Made by a program: the position numbers and the translations under genes. Positions 30,140 to 37,396 of a stretch of DNA of 64,000 nucleotides are shown here, piece after piece (within the stretch, counting starts at the first letter, position 1; each line of letters begins with the position of its first letter). Origin of the DNA: Saprospiraceae bacterium (GTDB taxonomy: Bacteria; Bacteroidota; Bacteroidia; Chitinophagales; Saprospiraceae); contig JAHDGU010000007.1 of the NCBI GenBank assembly GCA_020627535.1, positions 62,001 through 126,000 of the forward strand, written 5' to 3'. The notes beneath the pieces are model-generated. The model searched no databases. It was given only the letters and a program-made list of their open reading frames with translations, and was not told the DNA's origin.

Positions 30140-30147
30140 TAAGTTTG
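30140..30147 (+). promoter_or_regulatory. -7 promoter element for mntR
   Basis: TAAGTTTG matches TAnnTTTG exactly, 19 nt before the mntR start. It overlaps a short inverted repeat GTTTG-CC-CAAAC (30143-30154). Confidence 0.5.
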
Positions 30148-30159
30148 CCCAAACAAATC

Positions 30160-30175
30160 TTTAGACTTGTCTAAA
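30160..30175 (+). promoter_or_regulatory. DtxR/MntR-type operator overlapping the mntR start
   Basis: TTTAGACTTGTCTAAA is an inverted repeat with two perfect 7-bp arms and a 2-bp centre, like the TTTAGG-type operators of DtxR-family manganese/iron repressors. It covers the TTG start codon of mntR itself, suggesting autorepression when metal is abundant. The site type is established knowledge of the family; binding here is inference. Confidence 0.7.
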
Positions 30176-30844
30176 AACAACAGTCGGAGCGAGGAAGACT
30201 ATATCAAAAGTGTCTACATGCTCACCGAAAATGCTTCTACCCGTGTCCAGACCAATCAGATTGCTGATCGCCTGCATACATCTGCGGCATCCGTGACGGA
30301 TATGATCAAGAAGCTGTCCCAAAAAGGCATGCTCGAATATGCCCCCTACAAAGGCGTCAAACTGACCTCAGAAGGTCACAAAGCTGCCACTGCACTGGTC
30401 AGAAGTCATCGTCTCTGGGAAGTATTTCTTGTGGAAAAACTAGGGTACGACTGGGCGGATGTCCATGATATTGCCGAGCAGCTCGAACACATCAAGTCCG
30501 ATGATCTCACAGATCGACTTGCTCACTTCCTAGGGAATCCTCATTTTGATCCTCATGGAGATCCGATTCCAGATGCCAACGGCAAATACCGCCTTGTCAA
30601 TCGCGCTGCACTCAACTCCATTTTGCCGAAAGGCAGGTACATTCTTACAGGTGTAAAAACCCATGACAAAGATTTTCTACTGATGTTAGAAAGTTACAAG
30701 ATTCGCCTAGGCACCGAAATGGATCTGATCGAGAGGCTGGACTTTGACAATTCAGTGCGCGTTGCCATCGCCGATCGCGTGACCATCATGCCTAGTACCA
30801 TAGCTTCCAATCTTCTTGTCGCCAAAGCAAGACAACAATCATGA
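30167..30844 (+). CDS. mntR: DtxR-family metal-dependent repressor (MntR-like)
   Basis: This is a metal-sensing transcription repressor, 225 residues. It has an N-terminal winged helix (RSEEDYIKSVYMLTEN, ADRLHTSAASVTDMIKKL), a dimerisation helix (WEVFLVEKLGYDWADVHDIA, EQLEHIKS) and a C-terminal FeoA/SH3-like domain (~residues 140-225). The likely start is a TTG at 30167, unusual, lying inside its own operator. It overlaps the binding-protein gene by 4 bp (ATGA), so regulator and transporter are one transcript. An internal GNAA hairpin encodes L-P-K-G-R. Confidence 0.88.
   Translation: MSKNNSRSEEDYIKSVYMLTENASTRVQTNQIADRLHTSAASVTDMIKKLSQKGMLEYAPYKGVKLTSEGHKAATALVRSHRLWEVFLVEKLGYDWADVHDIAEQLEHIKSDDLTDRLAHFLGNPHFDPHGDPIPDANGKYRLVNRAALNSILPKGRYILTGVKTHDKDFLLMLESYKIRLGTEMDLIERLDFDNSVRVAIADRVTIMPSTIASNLLVAKARQQS
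30621..30634 (+). repeat. GNAA hairpin motif, copy 14
   Basis: TTT then TGCC-GAAA-GGCA (the last A is at 30635), sense in mntR. Confidence 0.8.
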
Positions 30845-31845
30845 AACATCTCTCATATACTTTATTATTCTGTCTATTGGTTTCTTTGAGGGCTTTCGCC
30901 CAAATGGATGAGAAGCCATTGGTCGTTGCCTCTGCATCTATGATCCACGACATGCTCGAAGTGATTGGCGGAGAATACATTGAGACCGCTACGATCGTGC
31001 CGATTGGCTCGGATCCACACTTGTACGAACCTACACCATCTGATGTACAGCTCACCTCGGATGCTCAGCTCATCTTGGTCAATGGACTCACCTTTGAGGG
31101 ATGGCTCAATGAGCTCATTGACAACTCAGGCACTAAGGCAAAGACGATCCGAGTCACCGAAGGTGTCAATGCCATCGCCAGTGAAGAATATGCCAATAGT
31201 GCAGATCCACATGCATGGATGGACGTACAGAATGCCATGATCTATGCTGACAACATCCGAAAAGCTCTCAGTGAGCTCATCCCTGAAGAGGCAGAGACAT
31301 TCCAGTTCAACTATAATGTCTACAAGTCCCAACTCCAAGATCTTGACATCTATGTCCAAGAGCAAATAGCCACCATACCAGAGACTCAGCGCATACTCGT
31401 TACTTCTCACGATGCATTTTCCTATTATGGGAGGCGATATGGCCTCAAGCTAGAAGCCCTTGCAGGCTTCTCTACCGAGGCAGATCCTAGGACCAGTGAT
31501 GTCATCCGCGTCAACAAGGTGATCTCAGAGCATAAGCTCCCTGCTATATTCATGGAAAGCACGATCAATCCAAAGCTCCTTCAACAGCTAGCCAAGGACA
31601 ATGACATCAAGATCGGTGGCAAGCTCTATGCTGATAGTCTCGGCGATAAAGATGGACCCGCGGGCAGCTATATCAAGATGATACGACATAATACCGACGT
31701 GATCGTGACTGCTCTCAAGCAAACGATCGACAGCAGAGACATTCAAGGTGGTCAGAAATCAGCAAAAACTTATCTCTGGCTACTGATACCGATCGGCTGC
31801 TTCATCCTGGGATATGTCCTTGCCAAGTTGCTCAAGAAGTCCTGA
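30841..31845 (+). CDS. Metal ABC transporter substrate-binding protein, Mn/Zn cluster A-I type
   Basis: This is a 334-residue periplasmic metal-binding protein with a signal peptide ending AFA before Q21. The predicted metal ligands are His60 (DPHLYEP), His124 (DPHAWMD), Glu239 (FMESTINP) and Asp265 (YADSLGD), the two-His, one-Glu, one-Asp set of manganese/iron-binding members. There is no His-rich loop as in zinc-specific ZnuA. Unusually, a hydrophobic helix (LWLLIPIGCFILGYVLAKLL) and a short basic tail at the C-terminus would tether it to the inner membrane. It lies between mntR and the ATPase. Confidence 0.9.
   Translation: MKHLSYTLLFCLLVSLRAFAQMDEKPLVVASASMIHDMLEVIGGEYIETATIVPIGSDPHLYEPTPSDVQLTSDAQLILVNGLTFEGWLNELIDNSGTKAKTIRVTEGVNAIASEEYANSADPHAWMDVQNAMIYADNIRKALSELIPEEAETFQFNYNVYKSQLQDLDIYVQEQIATIPETQRILVTSHDAFSYYGRRYGLKLEALAGFSTEADPRTSDVIRVNKVISEHKLPAIFMESTINPKLLQQLAKDNDIKIGGKLYADSLGDKDGPAGSYIKMIRHNTDVIVTALKQTIDSRDIQGGQKSAKTYLWLLIPIGCFILGYVLAKLLKKS
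30890..30904 (-). repeat. GNAA hairpin motif, copy 15
   Basis: TTT then GGGC-GAAA-GCCC, antisense at the signal-peptide end of the binding protein (gene strand R-A-F-A-Q). Confidence 0.8.
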
Positions 31846-32576
31846 TGTCTCTTGCGATCCAGATAGAAGCTCTTACAGTCTCCTACGGCAGCAAAATGAT
31901 CTTGCGCAATGTCTATCTCGACATCCAAGCCGGGCAGATTTACGGTATCCTTGGGCCCAATGGAGCAGGTAAATCCACTCTCTTTAAGGCCATCCTAGAG
32001 CTGATAGAACCCAATAGAGGAGAGATCAAAGTCTTCGGTGAGTCTCTCGATGATGTGCGCAATCGAGTGGCCTATATCCCACAGAAGGATGAAGTAGACT
32101 GGAGCTTTCCTGCCACTGTACAGGATGTAGTCCTTATGGGTCGCTATCCCTACAAGAAGTTTTACCAAGTGATCAACAAGAAGGACCGTGCCATCGCTGA
32201 TCGCGTCATGGATCAGATTGGTATCAGTCACTTACGCTCTCGGCAGATCGGTCAGCTCTCCGGCGGCCAGCAGCAGCGAGTGTTCATCGCTAGGGCGCTA
32301 GCCCAGGAAGCAGACATTATGTTTTTGGATGAGCCCTTTGTCGGTGTCGATGCGACGACTGAGGCACATATTATGGATCTCCTCAGATCTCAAGCGGCGG
32401 AGGGAAAAACTTTTCTCATGATCCACCATGACCTCTCCAAAGTGGATGAGTACTTTGACCAGATTGTCTTATTGAACAAGCGGATAGCTGCTGTCGGACC
32501 CAGTTCAACTACCTTCACCGAGGAAAATATCAAGCGCACCTACGGACCGCAGAGTAAACTTCTGGACATTGACTGA
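31845..32576 (+). CDS. Metal ABC transporter ATP-binding protein
   Basis: This is a 243-residue ABC ATPase of the Mn/Zn (cluster A-I) family. It has Walker A GILGPNGAGKSTLFKAI, Q-loop YIPQKDEVDWSFPAT, signature LSGGQQQRVFIARALAQE, Walker B IMFLDEPFVGVD and the switch His in MIHHDLS. Its ATG overlaps the binding-protein stop by one base. The next gene to the right is on the other strand and starts directly at this stop, so the operon ends here and no permease gene is present. Confidence 0.95.
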   Translation: MSLAIQIEALTVSYGSKMILRNVYLDIQAGQIYGILGPNGAGKSTLFKAILELIEPNRGEIKVFGESLDDVRNRVAYIPQKDEVDWSFPATVQDVVLMGRYPYKKFYQVINKKDRAIADRVMDQIGISHLRSRQIGQLSGGQQQRVFIARALAQEADIMFLDEPFVGVDATTEAHIMDLLRSQAAEGKTFLMIHHDLSKVDEYFDQIVLLNKRIAAVGPSSTTFTEENIKRTYGPQSKLLDID

Positions 32577-33896
32577 TCAAAATCTCAGATTGAGCCCAGA
32601 CATGATCGAAAACTGATTGGCCTTGTCTATGGCAAAGATGCTATTGACATGGTGCGTCTGGAAGAAGATAGACATCGGTCCTAAAAACATTCTGGTGTGG
32701 AATCCGATATTGGCAAAATTCTCATAGCGATAAGAGCTTGACAAACCAAGTACCACCCAACTCGCCGGCTGGTAATTGACCCATACATCTGCTCGCACGT
32801 CATCGCGCAAGCTCCGATCGATCATCTGCACAGCTCCTCCCACAGTCAGCGCTGGCGTGAGTCCTACTTGACCATGAACAACAAGTCTCATCGGCAGATC
32901 TGTACGAAATCCCTCGAGATCTTCTTGTTGAATATTGAGTACCTGCTCCACACTATCATCAATCCTGATGAGATTGATATCCTCGATATCTAGCAGATCA
33001 TCAAGGCGTATACCTTCATAGGCTCGATTGACCCTGCTGGTAAGCCTTTCTGTATTCTTATCCCAAGTGATACCGCCTAGGTCCAATAGACTCACACCCA
33101 CATGGGTCCGCTCTCCAAACTGCATTGTCGCTCCCAGATCAAAAGCCCAGCCTTGGTTACCATTAAAGATTCTTTGCAAATCAAGGAAACTTCCTTCCCA
33201 GGATAGATCCGTGATACCGTTGTAATCTAGAACTGAACTATTGATGAGCGAATAGTCATTATCAAACTCAAGTGCAAAGTCTGTCTCTCGGGTCGTGAGA
33301 CGCATCCTGCTACTCTCAGTGCGTAGATAGTTTACGCCACTCAGAGATTTGATACTAGCTCCTAGTCGCACCGGTCCGACTTGTCGATTCACAGTGACAA
33401 ATAGCTCAACGAAGTTAATCAAGTCGACTTCTGAATCCAGTGTGAGTGTCTCCCCGATCAATGGACCGTTGCCTTTCCAAAGCACAGCTGCCAAGTCACG
33501 CGAATACGTCAGATCACTCTGAGTACGAAGTGTATTACCAAGTTGGAAAAACCAATCTCCTTTGGCATATCCGACCATCAGAGACTGCAGCATCATGTCT
33601 ATGGAGATAGTCTCCATATCATTTTCCATGGCGTCTGCAAGCTCGCCTAGATTGAGCAATCTCTTGCTGCCCACTTGTCGTCGGCTCACATCGTCGAGTG
33701 TAGGACCTGTATGATCTAGTCCAAACTGTACAGTGGGAAGCGATATAAATACGCCAGAGTCAATGGGATTCCATGCCGGATTGACCATCGTCTGTTGTTG
33801 CAATTTTGGTAGGAAGAGGAAACCTACGTTGTCTTGGGCACTGGCCGCTGTCGCAAAAATGAAAAGACAGCTGATATATGTGATTATTCTTTTCAT
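32577..33896 (-). CDS. Outer-membrane beta-barrel protein (DUF5723-like)
   Basis: This is a 439-residue protein with signal peptide FIFATAASAQ and no membrane helices after it. The rest has alternating strands with frequent Gly/Phe/Tyr, a conserved-looking MVNPAWNP near the N-terminus and a terminal LNLRF, typical of an outer-membrane barrel. It resembles the DUF5723 family as I remember it; the function is unknown. It follows a lipoprotein gene by 2 bp, and the pair is probably translated together, suggesting a barrel with its lipoprotein partner. Confidence 0.68.
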   Translation of the reverse strand: MKRIITYISCLFIFATAASAQDNVGFLFLPKLQQQTMVNPAWNPIDSGVFISLPTVQFGLDHTGPTLDDVSRRQVGSKRLLNLGELADAMENDMETISIDMMLQSLMVGYAKGDWFFQLGNTLRTQSDLTYSRDLAAVLWKGNGPLIGETLTLDSEVDLINFVELFVTVNRQVGPVRLGASIKSLSGVNYLRTESSRMRLTTRETDFALEFDNDYSLINSSVLDYNGITDLSWEGSFLDLQRIFNGNQGWAFDLGATMQFGERTHVGVSLLDLGGITWDKNTERLTSRVNRAYEGIRLDDLLDIEDINLIRIDDSVEQVLNIQQEDLEGFRTDLPMRLVVHGQVGLTPALTVGGAVQMIDRSLRDDVRADVWVNYQPASWVVLGLSSSYRYENFANIGFHTRMFLGPMSIFFQTHHVNSIFAIDKANQFSIMSGLNLRF

Positions 33897-35548: not shown

Positions 35549-36460
35549 CTAGCCTGCCAGTCGGAATCTGACGGGAAGTGTGAATTCCACTTTCACTGGA
35601 CGTCCTCTCTGCTTGCCAGGGCTCCACTTAGTCGGCATATTATTCATGCTTTCGACAACACGCAGGGCTTCAGCCCCACATCCAGCACCTGGATCTTTTG
35701 CGATTCTAGCTCCCGATATCGAGCCATCTTTCTCTACGACAAACTGGATGACGCAGAGTCCTTCGATATTGTTTTCACGAGCGATGACAGGGTACTTGAT
35801 ATTCTTGTACATGTAAGCTAGGAGTTTGTCCTGAGCGCACTTGTCTTTCTCAGCATTGGTGGCAAGATCATCACAGCCTGGAAATCTCGGCATGTCTTCA
35901 ACACGCTTAAAGATTTCTTCCACTTCTGGTGGCGGTGGTGGCGGTGGTGGCGGTGGTGGTGGTGCTTCTTCTACCGGCTCCGGTGTATCCATGACCACCT
36001 CTTCGTCGATACTTTGATCTTCAAAGACTGGTTCCTCTTCTTCTTCGATTTCTTCTTCAGGCACCTCCTCGATCACCGGTGGTGGTGGTGGTGGCGGTGG
36101 TGGTGGTGGTTCTTTGGTACGTGGCGGAAGCTGCTCAATTTCTTCGTCGAGGCTCACATCTTCCCATTCGTAGCTCTTGATCTCTTCTTTCTCCGTGAAG
36201 TTGAAGGCCATGACCACGGTAGCAAGACTCGCAACCAGACCAAATAGCCACATGGTACGAGACCACTTGAAAGCATCTACCTCTGGAAACTTACTTCTTG
36301 CGGCCAATCCTCCTAGACCAGATGCCGCGTACTTTTCAGCCAGGCTGTCTGGTGACTTCGATCGGAAGTTGGATCTGAGCCATAAGACGATCAACACACC
36401 TAGTCCGATCAAGATCAGACCGTAGATGATCACTTCTTTTAATTCAAATTCTAGACCCAT
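35549..36460 (-). CDS. tonB: TonB energy transducer with two poly-proline tracts
   Basis: This inner-membrane protein spans the periplasm to energise TonB-dependent receptors. The ATG at 36460 (MGLEFELKE) is preferred over an upstream TTG. The 303-residue protein has two predicted membrane helices (VIIYGLILIGLGVLIVLWL and TMWLFGLVASLATVVMAF), unusual for TonB, which normally has one. Acidic stretches and proline runs of 11 and 12 residues follow. The C-terminal domain has a four-cysteine insert (FPGCDDLATNAEKDKCAQDK) and KYPVIARENNIEGLCVIQFV, with GAGCGAEALRVVESM near the end. A paralogue lies upstream. Confidence 0.9.
   Translation of the reverse strand: MGLEFELKEVIIYGLILIGLGVLIVLWLRSNFRSKSPDSLAEKYAASGLGGLAARSKFPEVDAFKWSRTMWLFGLVASLATVVMAFNFTEKEEIKSYEWEDVSLDEEIEQLPPRTKEPPPPPPPPPPPVIEEVPEEEIEEEEEPVFEDQSIDEEVVMDTPEPVEEAPPPPPPPPPPPPEVEEIFKRVEDMPRFPGCDDLATNAEKDKCAQDKLLAYMYKNIKYPVIARENNIEGLCVIQFVVEKDGSISGARIAKDPGAGCGAEALRVVESMNNMPTKWSPGKQRGRPVKVEFTLPVRFRLAG
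35928..35963 (-). repeat. In-frame proline-codon repeat in tonB (12 Pro)
   Basis: Twelve CCA/CCG/CCx codons in a row form a GGT/GGC-type trinucleotide repeat on the plus strand; such tracts can change in length by slippage in whole codons. Confidence 0.8.
36078..36110 (-). repeat. In-frame proline-codon repeat in tonB (11 Pro)
   Basis: Eleven proline codons, nearly pure CCA repeats, precede the acidic segment between the two tracts of the periplasm-spanning region. Confidence 0.8.
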
Positions 36461-36480
36461 AGTGAAAATGTTTGTAGTCC

Positions 36481-36497
36481 TAAGCCACAAAGGCTTA
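36481..36497 (-). promoter_or_regulatory. Small inverted repeat in the tonB leader
   Basis: TAAGCC-TTTGT-GGCTTA on the minus strand lies about 20 nt before the tonB ATG. It could be a leader hairpin or operator; the signal is weak. Confidence 0.3.
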
Positions 36498-36553
36498 AGA
36501 CCGTAATATTAATTAATAACTCCTTTTTCTGCAAAAAATCTGTATCATCTTTC

Positions 36554-37396
36554 TCATTCTAGTGTAAACTTGATCGGTACACGTAGCCTCACCGACACCG
36601 GGCGACTGCCATTGAATCCAGGAATCCACGGTTCATCGAGATCTCGCAGCTTCGCGAGTGCCCCCAGTACTTCTGCACCACATCCACCCCCAATATCTCT
36701 GAGGATGACAATATCCTTGATGCGGCCATCACGATCTACGACAAATTCACCGACGACATGTCCTTGTATACCATTGCTCCGTGCTATGGGAGGATAGTCT
36801 ATGTGCTGATACATAAACTCTAGTAGCTTCTCTTCTGAGCAAGCTGCTCGCTGAGCAAAGGCAAGGTCTTCACAAACTGGAAATCGAGGCATCTGCTGTG
36901 CCCGCAGCACGATCTCTTCTGGCTCCTCCTCTGTAGGTAGCGGCGATGGTGCGGGAGGTACAGGTGGCGTCGGATCCGATACAGCTGCGACAGCAGGCAA
37001 GTCCTCGATCTCATGGCTTTTGAGCTCGGTCTCGATGAGCTCAGGACTATCATCGATTTCAATCATCTGATTCTGAAGGATCTTCTTTTCTTCCTTGACT
37101 GGTTCTGGATCAGGCTCAGGAATATCTGGCTTCTCTAGATGAGCTTGTTGTGTCTCTAGAGTGATGAGCGCAGGCTGCTCACTGTGGTAGATCTCACTGA
37201 TATCAAGTTTGACTTCTGTTTCCCAATTGAGGACAGTGATGACAGCTGCAAGGGCTGTATTGAGCCCGATGAGCCGTAGACTGATGAGGAGTTTGTGCGG
37301 GCTTTCGCCCAAATGTCTCAATCTCCAAAATAAGAAGATACTGACTGCGCTAAGTGCGCTGATGATGATCCAGATGTGCGTGTGTCCGTCTAGCAT
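36554..37396 (-). CDS. TonB-like energy transducer, second paralogue
   Basis: This is a 280-residue TonB-like protein with an N-terminal membrane helix pair (IWIIISALSAVSIFLFW and LRLIGLNTALAAVITVLNW), a Glu/Pro-rich spacer and a TonB C-terminal domain (IDYPPIARSNGIQGHVVGEF, then GGGCGAEVLGALAKLRD). It shares the same cysteine insert as its neighbour (FPVCEDLAFAQRAACSEEK), so the two arose by duplication. It has no long proline runs. Its start overlaps the vanZ-like gene by 47 bp. Two specialised transducers may serve different receptor sets. Confidence 0.86.
   Translation of the reverse strand: MLDGHTHIWIIISALSAVSIFLFWRLRHLGESPHKLLISLRLIGLNTALAAVITVLNWETEVKLDISEIYHSEQPALITLETQQAHLEKPDIPEPDPEPVKEEKKILQNQMIEIDDSPELIETELKSHEIEDLPAVAAVSDPTPPVPPAPSPLPTEEEPEEIVLRAQQMPRFPVCEDLAFAQRAACSEEKLLEFMYQHIDYPPIARSNGIQGHVVGEFVVDRDGRIKDIVILRDIGGGCGAEVLGALAKLRDLDEPWIPGFNGSRPVSVRLRVPIKFTLE
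37299..37313 (-). repeat. GNAA hairpin motif, copy 16
   Basis: TTT then GGGC-GAAA-GCCC, sense near the start of the second tonB-like gene, encoding L-G-E-S-P. Confidence 0.8.

Follow-up and report, generated by a model that had tools for sequence, protein, structure and literature searches.

A cluster A-I metal importer of Saprospiraceae with its permease gene at a distant, probably co-regulated locus and a sensor-like domain on the permease

Where is the permease of a metal importer whose operon ends without one? This question is raised by a stretch of 64,000 nucleotides from a Saprospiraceae bacterium (GCA_020627535.1, contig JAHDGU010000007.1, positions 62,001 to 126,000 of the forward strand), which we call the window and number from its first letter. 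At 30167-32576 the window carries genes for a DtxR-family repressor (mntR), a ZnuA-type metal-binding protein and an ABC ATPase. The initial annotation described them as a manganese operon without its permease. It proposed that either the permease lies elsewhere or the transporter was lost and the binding protein has a new job. We are very confident that the first option holds, with the permease relocated and the transporter complete and co-regulated. The wider explanation, which combines a split importer, shared control and a metal-sensing domain on the permease, is in our view also highly probable.

The operon and its distant permease

We examined the three genes and their surroundings. The coordinates agree with the tight operon that had been annotated: mntR and the binding protein gene overlap by 4 bp (ATGA), while the binding protein and ATPase genes overlap by 1 bp (TGATG). 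On the plus strand the ATPase gene finishes with its stop at 32576, which abuts the end, at 32577, of a convergent DUF5723 gene on the minus strand, so that there is indeed no permease next in line. The repressor has the Pfam domains Fe_dep_repress, Fe_dep_repr_C and FeoA and is thus a full DtxR/MntR protein. The binding protein belongs to the ZnuA family (PF01297, E 1e-81) and the ATPase to ABC_tran (PF00005, E 1.8e-34); their nearest NCBIfam models are of the MntC/AztC and MntA/AztA kinds. What we take to be Walker A (GPNGAGKST), the signature (LSGGQQQR), Walker B (IMFLDEP) and the H-loop of the ATPase are intact.

The search of the genome for a cluster A-I permease, as suggested in the initial annotation, was performed on all 4.09 Mb (25 contigs, 99.67% complete). 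There was a single ABC-3 family match (E 4.9e-70), on contig 8, behind the same kind of palindrome as the one found at mntR. The closest solved structure to this permease is PsaB (7kyo, E 1.6e-47). The only ZnuA family (PF01297) match in the genome is the binding protein of the window. Genome-wide, all components of a cluster A-I importer therefore appear to be encoded, namely a ZnuA-type protein, an ABC ATPase and a non-adjacent ABC-3 permease. We rejected a contig break as the cause of the split in this genome, because both genes lie deep inside their contigs (the binding protein gene at 92.9 kb of 230.6 kb, the permease gene at 172.1 kb of 218.8 kb).

Further, we compared gene content and gene order in relatives. 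The family is identified as Saprospiraceae by its named members (Lewinella cohaerens, Portibacter lacus, Portibacter marinus, Flavilitoribacter nigricans), which stand among many metagenome-assembled genomes. Lewinella cohaerens and Portibacter are of the split type, with permease loci L157, L163 and L204. Among 62 family genomes, permease and binding protein occurred together in 46, both were absent from 16, and neither was ever found alone. The two genes were unlinked in 38 of the 46 genomes; the remaining 8, in which they are linked, have a two-permease operon. In one genome assembled as a single 7.5-Mb contig (G170) they are 2.79 Mb apart. Among named permease loci (the best 80 of 518 relatives), 76 had no binding protein in the flank and 4 had one; when at least 4 kb of flank was present on both sides, 48 of 50 had none.

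The split is not a feature of the whole phylum, and we rejected that possibility. In 198 Bacteroidota genomes a binding protein above the cut-off was detected in 91, and in 85 of these a permease lay within 3 kb, in a count that omits weak permease matches (all but one below about 35 bits), the majority of second permeases in two-permease operons and a binding-protein match of 21.7 bits, which is under the family cut-off. The six exceptions were four Saprospiraceae and two genomes with the binding protein only.

In four intact operons (L128, L172, L194 and G005) the gene order is mntR, binding protein, ATPase, permease, and the permease sits directly after the ATPase, exactly where the window has its convergent gene. 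A quick FastTree tree grouped these four inside the family with support of 0.95. This tree cannot tell an ancestral from a re-joined state of the intact operons, nor repeated splitting from re-joining. The same four operons join this type of permease to the other three genes, and the 38 split genomes all have a single binding protein and a single ABC-3 permease. Both observations speak against the idea that the contig 8 permease serves another ATPase while the binding protein and ATPase of the window use another membrane partner. Location on different contigs fits that idea, which we consider very improbable.

The other option in the initial annotation, a defunct transporter whose binding protein has a new job, would agree with the lack of a permease adjoining the operon. 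One genome (G206, an assembly of about 490 contigs) encodes a lone membrane-anchored binding protein (L125, G206:C203) with no ATPase beside it and no fused permease, and has a separate two-permease operon elsewhere; a true loss is possible there, so that loss may happen. For the window, we rejected loss of the transporter and give it next to no probability, since an intact permease is present behind the same kind of site, co-occurrence is perfect in the 62 genomes and the ATPase motifs are intact.

Predicted operators at both transcription units

We wanted to see whether the two loci carry common regulatory sites. The palindrome TTTAGACTTGTCTAAA, a predicted MntR operator, overlaps the mntR start, and TTTAGGCAACTCTAAA, which shares its pattern, precedes the permease gene. 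The TTG start of mntR (30167) falls inside the predicted operator, and there is no alternative in-frame ATG, GTG or TTG before residue 18. Exact matches to TTTAGRCNNNTCTAAA were found at only two places in 4.09 Mb, before mntR and before the permease gene, and no match with one mismatch was found in the genome. As TTTAGRCNNNTCTAAA was drawn from the two sites themselves, this count alone is not a fair test, while conservation is. We rejected a broad MntR regulon, as the genome scan at up to one mismatch listed just these two sites.

To assess conservation, we scored the best 16-mer in the 150 bp upstream of each gene by its matches to TTTAG/CTAAA, with a threshold of at least 9 of 10. In the split-type genomes the site reached the threshold before mntR in 29/29 (Markov control about 3%) and before the permease in 28/37 (Markov controls 2-3% for these two genes and 1-3% across the test), as compared with 2/38 before the binding protein and 0/34 before the ATPase. 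The stretch analysed included mntR for 29 of the 38 split genomes, and 37 of the 38 permease regions were used (that of G234 is cut). In the named split relatives the site was present at 58/74 unlinked permeases (control 2.2%; windows inside genes 2/74); the 74 come from 76 unlinked loci, two of which are at contig ends. These named loci, again the best 80 of 518 relatives, overlap with the family genome set, and the two conservation tests are not independent.

Shared control is weakened by the permease genes at which the site stayed below the threshold (9/37, and 16/74 of the named set). In one genus (g5) the site becomes GTTAG..CTAAC. This form was detected before the binding protein in G129, G167 and G226 and before the permease in G079, G167, G216 and G226, that is before both genes in two genomes; mntR was not found adjoining the binding protein in this genus.

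The intact operons have a palindrome before mntR and none in front of the permease. In L200, where the two units lie nearby yet separate, one palindrome precedes each. The number of operators thus tracks the number of transcription units: one when the operon is whole, mostly two when it is split.

Both genes also have the sequence TAnnTTTG, presumably the promoter element of the Bacteroidota type, 20 bp before the palindrome (TAAGTTTG at mntR, TATATTTG at the permease gene). In relatives it was present near the palindrome in 11/29 mntR and 6/28 permease upstream regions, with a rate of about 4% in shuffled sequences, and the support that it lends beyond this genome is modest.

We infer from the shared and conserved sites that operon and permease are co-regulated. 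The regulator would be MntR, which has intact helix-turn-helix (HTH), metal/dimerisation and FeoA domains next to a predicted palindromic operator; the HTH model PF01325 was matched in 29/29 of its orthologues. It belongs to the same regulator family as PgMntR of Porphyromonas gingivalis and MntR of Bacillus subtilis. When metal is plentiful, metal-loaded MntR would sit on both palindromes and shut off both units. A third DtxR-family protein of the same genome (L086:1246-1902, G000:C9; 218 aa) has a regular HTH by eye.

According to the initial annotation, a permease elsewhere in the genome that is co-regulated with the operon would speak against a lost permease, and the contig 8 gene appears to be exactly this, with co-regulation judged from the conserved sites. 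Judged by sequence, the relocation is stable, co-regulated and family-wide, and it explains why the permease is missing from the operon. Two thirds of a working cluster A-I importer would be encoded in the window, with the permease supplied from another region of the chromosome. The coordinates of all features are listed in Table 1.

Table 1. Features of the split importer and of its surroundings. Positions without a prefix are those of the window.
Feature	Position	Strand	Remarks
Promoter element TAAGTTTG (TAnnTTTG)	30140..30147	+	20 bp before the mntR palindrome
Palindrome TTTAGACTTGTCTAAA, predicted MntR operator	30160..30175	.	perfect 7-2-7 inverted repeat; overlaps the mntR TTG start
mntR, DtxR-family repressor, 225 aa	30167..30844	+	TTG start; HTH, metal/dimerisation and FeoA domains intact
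ZnuA/cluster A-I metal-binding protein, 334 aa	30841..31845	+	signal peptide-like N-terminus, C-terminal membrane anchor
C-terminal transmembrane helix of the binding protein, about residues 313-331	31777..31833	+	from hydropathy
ABC ATPase, 243 aa	31845..32576	+	PF00005 match, Walker A, signature, Walker B, H-loop
DUF5723 gene, convergent, outside the transporter	32577..33896	-	fills the permease position of intact-operon relatives
Palindrome TTTAGGCAACTCTAAA	C8:172028-172043		before the permease; shares its pattern with the mntR site
ABC-3 permease, 495 aa, outside the window	G000:C8:172046-173533 (locus L001:1465-2952)	+	from the genome search
Fused binding protein-ATPase frames	L123:2199-3980, L075:1429-3198, L057:1429-3201		genomes G005, G134, G242

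Elsewhere in the window, at 35549-37396 on the minus strand, there are two adjacent proline-rich TonB-like proteins whose C-terminal domains are similar by eye.

The DtxR-type domain fused to the permease

The ABC-3 part of the permease is followed by a DtxR metal/dimerisation domain and then by a FeoA domain. In a profile test the metal/dimerisation domain was present in 37/37 fused members; this set consists of 36 aligned domains and G005 and excludes G190, which is without the domain, and G234, which is truncated. FeoA was recognised in 12/37, and many members end before it. By sequence and by fold the fused domain resembles the solved SloR, ScaR, MtsR and IdeR. In a structural model of the permease (predicted local distance difference test, pLDDT, 83.9; predicted template modelling score, pTM, 0.71) the fold of the membrane part matches PsaBC and that of the fused domain SloR. 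A single modelled helix (278-303) appears to connect the region just past the last membrane span with the domain and to carry D296.

We aligned the 36 fused domains with 29 MntR proteins from the same genome set, leaving out G190 and G234, the latter being cut by a contig end. The metal ligands of Bacillus MntR are Asp8, His77, Glu99, Glu102 and His103 according to PMC4805248, and they correspond to D296, H361, E384, E387 and H388 of the fused domain and to D11, H81, E104, E107 and H108 of the MntR of the window. In the fused domains D296, H361, E387 and H388 were kept in 36/36 and E384 in 30/36. At the Asp8 position 28 of the 29 MntR examined have Asn; the MntR of the window has Asp. Mean column conservation of the metal part was 0.69 in fused domains and 0.77 in MntR, while that of the recognition helix was 0.36 in fused domains and 0.81 in MntR. 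The Pfam HTH (PF01325) was matched by 0/37 fused proteins as compared with 29/29 MntR, and generic winged-helix models were matched by a few fused members, HTH_24 by three. Nearly invariant metal ligands next to an unconserved recognition helix fit a sensor that no longer reads DNA. We moderately favour the view that the fused domain serves the importer as an allosteric sensor of metal and is not a repressor, and it would bind the same metal that is imported.

The fusion itself is already known. In YtgCR of Chlamydia trachomatis (CT069) an ABC-3 permease of a cluster A-I importer likewise has a C-terminal DtxR-type domain, which is released by cleavage and acts as repressor of the operon that encodes it (PMC5599777, PMC6504234), and PMC5599777 credits Thompson et al. 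2012 with permease-DtxR fusions in 11 phyla. The fused domain of Saprospiraceae could be a true repressor, membrane-tethered or cleaved off, that aids MntR at both promoters. The architecture is the same as in YtgCR, the winged-helix fold seems to be retained in the model, and basic residues occur in the helix of several fused members. However, the recognition helix is unconserved although the operators are conserved, and PF01325 is not matched in any fused protein. The setting differs too: no iron-dependent regulator other than YtgR is said to have been identified in Chlamydia (PMC6504234), whereas here an intact-HTH MntR is encoded beside the binding protein in 29/38 split genomes and the permease gene is out of the operon. 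We consider such a repressor unlikely. What sets the Saprospiraceae system apart from YtgCR is a recognition helix that has decayed while a separate MntR is intact.

The domain could also be a passive leftover or a mere dimerisation scaffold that senses no metal. The incomplete occurrence of FeoA and the G190 permease, which has no such domain, agree with this, as do three two-permease operons (L126 in G182, L124 in G206 and L035 in G052) in which both permeases have winged-helix-like tails alone and no DtxR metal part. On the other hand, the metal ligands are among the most conserved positions of the domain, four of five being kept in every aligned member, and the metal part is conserved nearly as well as in MntR. 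This explanation seems to us rather improbable.

Returning to the metal sensor, its mode of action may be sketched as follows. Two permease copies would bring two DtxR-type domains together under the membrane. Cytosolic metal would lock the domain dimer, and the helix coming from the last membrane span would stall the ATPase cycle (trans-inhibition). As this helix bears D296, metal binding could be passed on mechanically. In MetNI and ModBC the pump is stopped by a C-terminal regulatory domain in the cytosol that detects the imported substrate (PMC10710835), and by analogy inhibition is predicted here.

Several observations weigh against the sensor. The inhibitory domains of MetNI and ModBC belong to the ATPase and differ in fold, while the domain considered here is part of the permease and has a DtxR origin. 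Site A is not a full copy of the Bacillus one, since E11 of Bacillus MntR is Lys in the fused domain and also in MntR (Lys14 in the MntR of the window). The fused domain is apparently still a winged helix in the model, which leaves room for DNA binding. The G190 permease (L107, G190:C80) ends at 328 aa without the DtxR domain, and the sensor is dispensable there; no separate downstream sensor gene was found in the stretch read. In place of the domain the G190 permease is followed by an unrelated long frame, which we take to be decarboxylase-like.

The anchored binding protein and its metal

The unusual C-terminal membrane helix that had been annotated in the binding protein is real. Its Kyte-Doolittle mean is 2.06 and it is followed by the tail KLLKKS. 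At a threshold of at least 1.6 the helix was detected in 36/38 split-type genomes, including that of the window, and the other two, with 1.55 and 1.38, come close to this value. Binding proteins of two-permease operons mostly end before the helix, and several have a lipobox-like motif instead, as judged by a crude motif test in which some sequences were cut. In three genomes (G005, G134 and G242) the helix joins binding protein and ATPase directly within a single open frame of about 590 aa. These frames indicate the topology, with the binding domain outside and the ATPase inside, and that binding protein and ATPase form one functional unit. The helix is therefore a clade-wide anchor of an importer component and not the sign of a new job; the binding protein would be held at the membrane by it. 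To our knowledge, a binding protein-helix-ATPase chain has no precedent.

We analyzed which metal may be imported. Residues H60, H124, H190 and D265 of the binding protein are invariant in 39 sequences, which departs from the His-His-Glu-Asp ligand set of PsaA, MntC and YfeA. The third ligand, His190, lies in the motif TSHDAF, as in the zinc protein AztC, where the residue is His204 (PMC7463823). At this position the alignment shows Glu (TSEGAF) in the Mn/Fe proteins MntA and YfeA. In TroA the third ligand is also His. T. pallidum TroA binds both metals in the nanomolar range (Kd of 7.1 nM for Mn and 22 nM for Zn; PMC3851752), and by analogy Mn transport would be possible despite His190. Regulator and permease point towards Mn-type systems (NCBIfam models; PsaB as the nearest solved permease). 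We regard Mn as the somewhat probable substrate and Zn as a rather doubtful one, and the name 'manganese' that was given to the operon is not established. Two Nramp-family transporters are encoded in the same genome (L208, G000:C22; L209, G000:C16). Given these two proteins, the importer is likely not the sole route for Mn or Fe.

Binding protein, ATPase and permease come from the same families as those of PsaBCA, MntABC, TroABCD and AztABC. Unlike in these systems, the genes are at two loci, the binding protein is helix-anchored and the permease has a sensor-like domain. In searches limited to openly licensed papers we found no description of the Saprospiraceae system.

In summary, these results suggest that a missing operon neighbour can be a stable, co-regulated relocation, with one operator when the operon is whole and two when it is split. 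We see about even chances that a DtxR-type repressor fused to the permease has lost its DNA-reading surface and is now an intramolecular gauge that stops import, that the unfused MntR handles transcription, and that in this clade a membrane helix attaches the binding protein to the ATPase side, some species having binding protein, helix and ATPase in one chain. Two features are worth the attention of specialists, the sensor-like domain of DtxR type that the permease carries and the chains of binding protein, helix and ATPase. Permease-DtxR fusions have so far been discussed, from the Chlamydia example, as repressors awaiting cleavage. If in this lineage the metal site was kept but the part that reads DNA has decayed, part of this fusion class may be better read as self-regulating transporters.

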